A DNA stretch of 64,000 nt from Prochlorococcus sp. AG-402-G10 (GTDB lineage: Bacteria > Cyanobacteriota > Cyanobacteriia > PCC-6307 > Cyanobiaceae), in NCBI GenBank assembly GCA_003279445.1, contig QCHT01000002.1, forward strand, positions 62,001 through 126,000. Direction: 5' to 3'. Shown piece by piece: positions 3,365 through 35,524 of the stretch; position 1 is the stretch's first letter; each line of letters opens with the position of its first letter. Under the pieces are notes generated by a model. It saw only the letters and a program-made list of their open reading frames with translations, made no database searches and was not told the origin of the DNA. The position numbers and the translations under genes were made by a program.

Positions 3365-3435
3365 GGCGGCATGGCCAAGCGGTAAGGCAGAGGATTGCAA
3401 ATCCTTTATCCCCAGTTCGAATCTGGGTGCCGCCT
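3365..3435 (+). tRNA. tRNA-Cys (anticodon GCA)
   Basis: A 71-nt cloverleaf can be drawn. The acceptor stem GGCGGCA pairs with TGCCGCC, there is a short D arm (GCCAAGCGGTAAGGC), an anticodon stem GAGGA/TCCTT around the loop TTGCAAA (anticodon GCA, Cys), and a T arm CCCAG-TTCGAAT-CTGGG. The encoded gene carries no CCA. It lies on the opposite strand immediately upstream of the lipid-A-synthase-like gene and its reverse complement creates a false 5' extension of that reading frame. Confidence 0.96.
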
Positions 3436-3617: not shown

Positions 3618-3764
3618 TTAATTTCAACTACTTAGGAATTCCATTGACTCCAACAAATTTGAATCCTTCTAACCAAGTAACCATAAGAGATATCCATTAT
3701 GAATAGAGAGGTATAGAAAGGATAATAGTCACAAACTTATCTAAAAAACTTTGATAAAAAAAGC

Positions 3765-3823
3765 AAAAAAAAGAGCGCCCTCAGCGAGCAGCGCCCTGTT
3801 GGACATATGTGTGAGGAGTGTCC
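3765..3823 (-). ncRNA. Yfr1-like small RNA with ACUCCUCACAC motif
   Basis: Read on the minus strand, a -10 box TATAGT (3835-3830) is followed seven bases later by a hairpin with arms GGACA and TGTCC (3823-3801). Its 13-base loop together with the closing base contains ACTCCTCACAC, the 11-nt motif that is nearly invariant in the cyanobacterial small RNA Yfr1. After AACA comes a second GC-rich hairpin (3796-3773, GCGCT-CTC-GCT-GAG-GGCGC core with one bulged G) and eight T residues (3772-3765), an intrinsic terminator. The predicted RNA is about 59 nt, the size expected for Yfr1. In described Yfr1 RNAs the motif lies unpaired between two hairpins; here it would be a loop. Yfr1 is known to bind mRNAs through this motif. 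The reading frame across this spot is treated as a shadow. Confidence 0.7.
3773..3796 (-). terminator. Intrinsic terminator of the Yfr1-like RNA
   Basis: A GC-rich stem (GGGCGCT/GGCGCTC with a three-base GCT loop and one bulged G) is followed on the minus strand by T8 at 3772-3765. It is the strongest intrinsic terminator in this part of the window and marks the 3' end of the small RNA. Confidence 0.75.
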
Positions 3824-3829
3824 AAACTC

Positions 3830-3835
3830 ACTATA
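3830..3835 (-). promoter_or_regulatory. -10 box of the Yfr1-like RNA
   Basis: TATAGT on the minus strand lies seven bases before the first base of the 5' hairpin. No convincing -35 hexamer is seen, which is common in Prochlorococcus promoters. Confidence 0.5.
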
Positions 3836-4137
3836 TAGCAATAAAACCATATGTAAAAGTTTCCCTGCAAGCAAAACAGAGCAGAATCGTTCTACAAACT
3901 TTGCTTTAACAAAGTCATTTGCATTTGATATAGGTAAAGTTTTACTCAACTAAAAAAGCAAGGCTTTCTTCTGAAACTTTCAAGATTAGAAATCAATTTC
4001 ACACAAAATACTAAAAACAAGAAATGCTTCCAAGTAACGGGTTATCTCTAAGTCAAACAAGGCTTCTGAATTGTTAAGATGTTTAGCATTATTTTAAAGA
4101 GCCTTATATAGTCTTAAAAAAGAAATTAGTCAATTTC
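3836..4137. other. Intergenic stretch without a recognised gene
   Basis: About 300 bases between the small RNA promoter and the next small gene. It holds a short inverted repeat ACTTTG-CTTTAA-CAAAGT at 3898-3915 and, near its right end, TATATAGT at 4105-4112, a plausible -10 for the gene at 4138. I see no credible reading frame or tRNA here. Confidence 0.5.
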
Positions 4138-4269
4138 ATGGCGCCAAAAGTACAACCTCAAGATTTGACCTTCTCTCTTTTTGGAGTAGTTCAAGTTTCT
4201 GCCGTTATCATAGCCTCCCTTGGTGCTCTCATTGGCTTTGAAAAGGTCTTTTTCCCCTTCTCAGGTTGA
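4138..4269 (+). CDS. Small single-helix membrane protein, 43 residues
   Basis: ATG at 4138 to TGA at 4267-4269 gives 43 residues: a polar N-terminus (MAPKVQPQDLTF), one hydrophobic span of about 23 residues (LFGVVQVSAVIIASLGALIGFEK) and a short FFPFSG tail. The size and single helix are those of small subunits of photosynthetic complexes (Psb, Psa, Pet and Ndh small subunits), but it does not match any that I know by sequence. A TATATAGT -10 sits 26 bases upstream, so it probably has its own promoter. Its function as a small thylakoid subunit is inference only. Confidence 0.6.
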   Translation: MAPKVQPQDLTFSLFGVVQVSAVIIASLGALIGFEKVFFPFSG

Positions 4270-5267: not shown

Positions 5268-6305
5268 TCACAGAGGAAGTCCAACAACCCTTGAGTCCAC
5301 ATCTGCAGTTTGATCTTCAATCTGGCCAATATTCCAAGCATTAAAAGAATTTGCATGGCAAATCTCCAAGACCTTCTGAGAGTTTTCTGAAGCGACAATG
5401 ATGCAAAAACCAATACCAAGATTAAAAGTATTCCATAAATCAATTTCAGGAATATCCCCTTCAAGACTTAGCCACCTGTAAATAGAAGGTTTTTCCCAAG
5501 AACTTGTGTTGATATAAGCCCTTAAACCATTAGGCAAGCACCTTGGTAAATTCTCAGGCAAACCTCCACCAGTGATATGTGCCATGCCTTTCAGAGGTAT
5601 TTTTTTTTGAAGCAAAGTTTGAACTAAGTCGACATATAACTTTGTTGGCTTGAGTAAATAATCAATCAGAGGCTTCCTATCACTACCAAAGCAAGTATCC
5701 TTATTCACTTTCTTCAATGCAATCACTTTTCGAATCAAACTAAAACCGTTGCTATGCATTCCACTACTTTCTAGTCCAATAATTTGATCTCCAGGTTTAA
5801 TTTTCTTGCCATCGATAATGCTTTTTTCATCAACTACTGCGACACAAAATCCTGCTAAATCATATTGACCGTCAGCATAAAAGCCTGGCATCTCAGCAGT
5901 TTCTCCTCCCAATAAGGAGCATTTTGACTGCTTACAACCATCCGCAATCCCTTTAATTACTTCAGATAAAGCGTCTGGGCCTAATTTCCCTGTAGCAATG
6001 TAATCAAGGAAGAAAAGTGGCTCTGCCCCACTTGTAATTACATCATTAACACACATTGCCACTAAGTCTATTCCTACCCCATAGTGCGATTTATAATCCT
6101 GAGCTAATTCAAGTTTTGTCCCTACTCCATCAGTACCAGAAACCAACACTGGATTTCTTAATCCCTCTGGTAAACGCATAAATCCACCGAAACCACCTAT
6201 GCCCCCAATTACCTCAGGGCGAGAGGTTGATTCCACAGATGATTTAATTCGATTAACGAAGGCCCTGCCTGCCTCAACATTGACTCCTGAAGACTTGTAA
6301 TCCAT
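5268..6305 (-). CDS. purM: Phosphoribosylformylglycinamidine cyclo-ligase (AIR synthetase)
   Basis: The 345-residue protein is the normal length of PurM, which closes the imidazole ring to form aminoimidazole ribonucleotide in purine synthesis. Typical motifs are [12 protein letters not shown] (about 57-68, the nucleotide-binding loop), [40 protein letters not shown] and [15 protein letters not shown] near the C-terminus. ATG at 6305 gives [16 protein letters not shown], the family start. The next gene upstream, panC-cmk, is divergent across a 139-base gap. The assignment is firm. Confidence 0.96.
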
Positions 6306-35354: not shown

Positions 35355-35381
35355 TTAGAACCATGCCTTGATCACTCTCTT

Positions 35382-35468
35382 TCACTTTCCTTCGCCGGGC
35401 TTAACCGTATCAGGTTCAGAGGGTGTGATCTCAGCCAAAAGCAAAAGCTCGTATGGCACCCCTAGTGA
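35382..35468 (-). promoter_or_regulatory. TPP riboswitch (thi box) upstream of thiC
   Basis: The minus strand carries the conserved thi elements in order: P1 arm TCACT, GGGGTGCC, GGCTGAGATCACACCCT, GAACCTGATACGGTTAA and GCCCGGCGAAGG, closed by AGTGA. These form the pyrimidine- and pyrophosphate-sensing helices of the thiamine pyrophosphate aptamer. It ends about 54 bases before the thiC start, room for a ribosome-binding or terminator switch. No clear terminator is visible between them, so translational control is likely. Confidence 0.93.
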
Positions 35469-35524
35469 GTATGTTCAAGCTAGCTATTTTTCAGCAATAA
35501 GTCCTTTTCTGTAAAATCAAATTA

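Follow-up and report, generated by a model that had tools for sequence, protein, structure and literature searches.

To our knowledge, nearly all cyanobacteria possess the small RNA Yfr1, and why Prochlorococcus SS120 and MIT9211 lost it has been a puzzle. In Yfr1 (RF01116; Voss 2007, PMC2190773), the motif is single-stranded and flanked by a hairpin on either side; in a reporter, the RNA represses PMM1121 (PMC6778093). Yfr10 (RF02362; Steglich 2008, PMC2518516; PMC6778093) carries the motif in a loop atop a stem that is followed by a terminator, and its family is poorly conserved in sequence, structure and synteny (Lambrecht 2019, PMC6778093). It has already been reported in MED4 and SS120, in the latter detected as an sRNA (Lambrecht 2019, PMC6778093). 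Yfr10 binds Yfr2, which is marked by Cyano-1 (PMC8400943), and shares targets with Yfr1; the affinity of Yfr1 and Yfr10 for Yfr2 exceeded that for ppa (PMC6778093). The locus described here lies in a window of 64,000 nt, the whole stretch of DNA that was analysed, from Prochlorococcus sp. AG-402-G10 (GCA_003279445.1, contig QCHT01000002.1, 62,001-126,000). Judged from its sequence, it is a Yfr10-type sRNA gene, the ordinary kind for this group, and our analysis suggests that its RNA continues the control that Yfr1 exerts over outer-membrane porin genes. To the published picture we add that this RNA is syntenic across the Yfr1-less clade, that it has paralogues linked to Yfr2 and that porin starts have retained the Yfr1/Yfr10 complement in strains lacking Yfr1; we also provide a covariance model of a group of low-light Yfr10 RNAs that is missed by Rfam.

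The gene occupies positions 3765-3823 on the minus strand and is predicted to encode an RNA of about 59-60 nt, its putative 5' end being placed to ±2 nt. The first hairpin (3801-3823, minus strand), supported by folds and by pair changes among copies, consists of the stem arms GGACA (3823-3819) and TGTCC (3805-3801), which form five base pairs with a possible sixth U-A pair, and a 13-nt loop. This loop presents an exact match to the Yfr1/Yfr10 undecanucleotide ACTCCTCACAC (3809-3819, minus strand); its first A closes the 5-bp stem and its remaining bases belong to the loop. The GC-rich terminator hairpin GGGCGCTGCTCGCTGAGGGCGCTC (3773-3796, minus strand), recognised by its fold and by covariation, and a T8 tract (3765-3772, minus strand) complete an intrinsic terminator. 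Folding of the RNA yields these two hairpins and no others, with an energy of -19.6 kcal/mol (z = -2.6). The 11-mer ACTCCTCACAC, with a chance expectation of 0.01 in the window, occurs once in the 1.62-Mb assembly. Upstream, a -10 box TATAGT (3830-3835, minus strand) was identified by promoter scan and by conservation in relatives, where the region reads TTGGTATA..AGT; it overlaps TATATA at 3837-3832 and is preceded by TTGC, or TTGG in relatives. The -35-like TTTACA (3852-3857, minus strand), 16 nt upstream of TATAGT, is weak and not conserved. The scan scored TTTACA-16-TATAGT at 10/12, and since shuffles yield 1.0 such sites, the hit is informative only via the conservation in relatives. The box, the 5-bp hairpin with the motif in its loop and closing base, the placement of that motif in a loop rather than single-stranded between hairpins, and the GC-rich terminator with eight T had all been pointed out in the first-pass annotation, and sequence and folds bear out each of them. 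An open reading frame at 3737-3949 that spans the RNA was rejected as coding because loop length changes among related copies.

In cmscan, the locus matched the Rfam Yfr10 model (RF02362) at 24.5 bits, below the gathering score of 43 (E 0.3 for 701 bases), and this sub-threshold match covers the whole RNA, aligning the motif and both hairpins. As the consensus in Rfam is similar to the high-light form (L293) and the family is poorly conserved, we file the RNA as Yfr10-type by its architecture and not as a member of the Rfam family. What it shares with Yfr10 is small size, the undecanucleotide in a loop and the intrinsic terminator that follows; its paralogues in this genome also lie upstream of Yfr2, as Yfr10 does in high-light strains. 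It differs in having a GGACA/CGACA stem and a GGCGC terminator, where the Rfam model has the stem AUCAGAaA, and the window gene itself sits beside tRNA-Cys and not upstream of Yfr2, a position that is stated for high-light strains only. With Yfr1 it has in common the ACUCCUCACAC seed and porin mRNA as a likely target, but its motif is not unpaired between two stem-loops and its gene is located between tRNA-Cys and purM instead of guaB and trxA, where the Yfr1 gene of genome G016 is found, in agreement with the trxA context given in the first-pass annotation. A covariance search with the Rfam Yfr1 model (RF01116), which that annotation had proposed, returned no cmscan match at the locus at E up to 10 and none in the genome. 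Genome G001 is presumably SS120, G104 presumably MIT9211 and G097 presumably MIT9313. G001 contains two exact motif matches, one without hairpin or terminator and the other, at 1,596,062-1,596,006, orthologous to the window RNA and syntenic with it; because this is the only structured exact-motif copy in that genome, we infer that it is the published SS120 Yfr10. Two exact motif occurrences had been reported for SS120 (Voss 2007, PMC2190773). Yfr12 and Yfr18 of MED4 and Yfr104 of MIT9313 are further Prochlorococcus RNAs with the Yfr1 motif, set beside the window RNA here by description; identity with Yfr103, reported as a multi-copy RNA of 290-328 nt in SS120 and MIT9313, was rejected on size.

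The gene is flanked on one side by tRNA-Cys(GCA) (3365-3435, plus strand) and on the other by a conserved 43-aa open reading frame of no known family (4138-4269, plus strand; 71-100% identity in relatives). Farther on, an open reading frame at 5268-6305 (minus strand) is presumably purM, a name given from its sequence. The conserved order is tRNA-Cys, the RNA, the 43-aa, a 56-aa and a 206-aa open reading frame, and purM. It is kept in 12 of the 14 genomes of the genus, counting G005, whose examined stretch ends before the tRNA, as well as in genera g31 and g54; the two genus genomes lacking a syntenic copy are 82% and 67% complete. Syntenic copies are thus found in 18 Yfr1-less genomes, SS120 and MIT9211 among them, twelve belonging to the genus and six to two other genera. 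Their mean identity is 95% across the initial 24 nt of the RNA, compared with 35% at -60 to -31, and this conservation excludes a chance origin of the motif site. The first-pass reading had been staked on the motif and both stems being conserved in close relatives, and this conservation was looked for and found. No match to the Rfam Yfr1 model was obtained in the genus, whose 14 genomes include three that are 99-100% complete, versus matches in 202 of the 251 genomes of the family, with Synechococcus elongatus as positive control above the cut-off. The first-pass statement that low-light strains such as SS120 and MIT9211 lack Yfr1 therefore stands, and the sRNA locus belongs to this low-light Yfr1-less clade.

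An alignment of 54 distinct copies, the window copy included (A1), served to build the covariance model R1, to which the window RNA, as one of the 54 training sequences, aligns with 75.2 bits (E 7.8e-15). ACTCCTCACA is invariant in all 54 copies. In A1, 98.9% of cells are paired and six pairs are changed on both sides, five of them in the terminator hairpin, giving a covariation score of 0.245 versus 0.119 in shuffles (reached by 0/500) and far above slid controls. As the outermost pair of the seed hairpin, 28 copies have C-G, 25 have G-C and one has G-U. The terminator hairpin has a covarying outer stem and an apex, UNCUCNNUGAGG, that hardly varies among the 54 copies. No partner for the apex was found; a contact of this apex (UUGAG/UUAAG) with the Yfr2 3' loop fits the paralogues of the genus but fails in other genera. 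Of the 251 family genomes, 55 give R1 matches at E < 1e-10, and the others give weak matches or none, those of about 25 bits fitting the high-light Yfr10 form. G097 has two R1 matches. In the present genome there are three strong R1 copies, including the paralogues located by blastn at C14:5464 and C9:18440. When 84,980 genomes were scanned for the pattern, the hairpin accompanied by this terminator was confined to Prochlorococcus among the matches listed.

This genome holds four Cyano-1 (Yfr2) genes, to which the loop is complementary over 10-11 nt with predicted duplexes of -17.1 to -20.3 kcal/mol. One Cyano-1 gene lies about 160 nt downstream of each of the C9 and C14 paralogues, and 17 pairs of a Yfr10-like gene and Yfr2, spaced by 90-164 nt, were seen among the loci examined.

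Richter is said to have shown in 2010 that PMM1119 and PMM1121 are Som porins. Using PF04966, we found nine porin genes in SS120, MIT9211, G002 and G066, and in all nine the dozen or so nt preceding the ATG include (G)TGTGAGGA or a close variant of it. These complements to the loop, 8-11 nt long and situated at the ribosome-binding site, give duplexes of -12.2 to -16.7 kcal/mol, compared with a mean of -4.8 (sd 2.65) for 315 control starts, of which four reach -12 kcal/mol, one of them itself a porin; one in 300 shuffled loops pairs with the porin starts equally well. The nine genes are paralogues chosen from prior knowledge of Yfr1 targets and are not independent, and the match is in part the Shine-Dalgarno AGGA, so the pairing counts as support and not as proof. 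The porin site was assessed in relatives only, since the porin start of this genome falls off a contig edge and the 5' part was not found in the small contigs. For ppa, another reported target, the start shows no notable pairing within the clade, and we rejected it as a target there. Genome-wide, perfect 9-mer complements are not clearly enriched over a reversed control, beyond Yfr2 and the copies themselves. A conserved 9-mer match upstream of a ctpA-like open reading frame proved to be antisense to the petB start, where ATGGCGAACTCCTCACC codes for MANSSP, and was set aside as a coding coincidence. In G011:C11, a Yfr10-like copy (L088:13427, minus strand) and a som porin start (L088:13575, plus strand) diverge from each other at a distance of 148 nt, and this start bears the complementary TGTGAGGA at its ribosome-binding site.

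Based on these data, we consider it probable that the window RNA is a trans-acting RNA of the Yfr10 type that represses porin translation, is held in check by Yfr2 and stands in for the lost Yfr1. According to this model, (i) an RNA of about 60 nt would be transcribed in this strain from its own minus-strand promoter and end at the GC-rich terminator; (ii) the seed ACUCCUCACAC would be offered in the 13-nt loop of the first hairpin; (iii) by pairing with the (G)UGUGAGGA that porin mRNAs (som, OprB-type) have at their ribosome-binding site, the seed would block the start of translation; (iv) Yfr2 (Cyano-1) RNAs, which bear the complementary UGUGAGGAG, could bind the same loop, leading to mutual titration; and (v) in the SS120/MIT9211 clade, where Yfr1 was lost, the locus would represent the conserved core copy that most likely maintains part of the Yfr1 regulon. 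The locus need not act alone, because paralogues and a third motif-bearing RNA exist. The Yfr1-less genomes examined at the locus keep a conserved Yfr10-type RNA, and the porin mRNAs of SS120, MIT9211 and relatives keep a complementary start site, which turns the published idea of Yfr10 covering for Yfr1 into a specific, testable RNA/target pair. More tentatively, and leaning slightly against it, we entertain the idea that across the Yfr1-less clade the RNA at the tRNA-Cys/purM locus took over Som porin control from Yfr1, that the target sites outlived their regulator and that the terminator apex is a second functional element.

The alternative with the most in its favour is that the RNA mainly serves as a sponge, binding Yfr2 more tightly than any mRNA, with its own mRNA targets of minor importance. 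Within the clade, perfect 9-mer complements recur at just one non-coding site, which is Yfr2, the paralogues sit beside Yfr2, and the published affinities of Yfr1 and Yfr10, stronger for Yfr2 than for ppa (PMC6778093), point the same way. However, the porin starts retain their 8-11 nt complements in genomes without Yfr1, and no Cyano-1 gene is found near the window copy within the 64-kb window, and we regard a sponge as its main job as unlikely. Spread of a repeat cassette in Prochlorococcus, be it a miniature mobile-like element or a shared terminator with no regulatory function at the locus, would account for several near-identical copies per genome in differing flanks and for the decayed copy in this genome (C12:28519-28573, minus strand, L295), which reads ACTCGTCACAC and has a broken stem. 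Yet in 18 genomes belonging to three genera the copy is fixed at the window locus, motif and pairs persist where the flanks cannot be aligned, and no terminator-bearing match occurs in viral contigs, which makes such a cassette scarcely probable. Carriage by viruses was likewise discarded: GACACTCCTCACA-N2..9-TGTC matches seven viral contigs, all of them without the terminator and therefore by chance.

A position between genes on both strands might also suit an element that acts in cis on a neighbouring gene, or is antisense to it, in place of a free sRNA, but the RNA has its own -10 box and terminator, its distance to tRNA-Cys varies among relatives from about 155 to over 2000 nt, and its paralogues occur in unrelated contexts; we hold this reading to be very improbable. 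Least probable of all is a rearranged or relocated Yfr1, one of two possibilities raised in the first-pass annotation. The undecanucleotide is identical and Yfr1 is missing from the clade, but the architecture differs, the Rfam Yfr1 model finds nothing even at E 10, and three genomes of other, Yfr1-positive genera (G016, G063 and G079) possess Yfr1 and, separately, a copy at the tRNA-Cys/purM locus. This coexistence refutes a relocation and, as the locus is occupied in Yfr1-positive genera, makes it older than the loss of Yfr1. As for the second possibility, a different RNA with the same seed, the class is a described one, with the architecture of Yfr10.

Further RNAs with the Yfr1 motif were encountered alongside the Yfr10-type copies. 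One, with a GGCACC..GGTGC terminator, occurs at L060:2290 (C14:5789 in this genome) and L080:2811; a Yfr10-like copy lies 325 nt upstream of it, with a Yfr2 in between. A third structural type was seen in L096, L097 and L099 near 2470-2570 and, in this genome, at C13:29138 (L321). In L096 and L099 the motif lies within a long ATCAGAGCC/GGTTCTGAT hairpin with a terminator, and tRNA-Pro and tRNA-Lys are on the same 5-kb stretch; in L097 a Cyano-1 (Yfr2) gene adjoins the motif RNA. Elsewhere in the window, a TPP riboswitch aptamer at 35370-35473 (minus strand) exceeds its Rfam gathering score.
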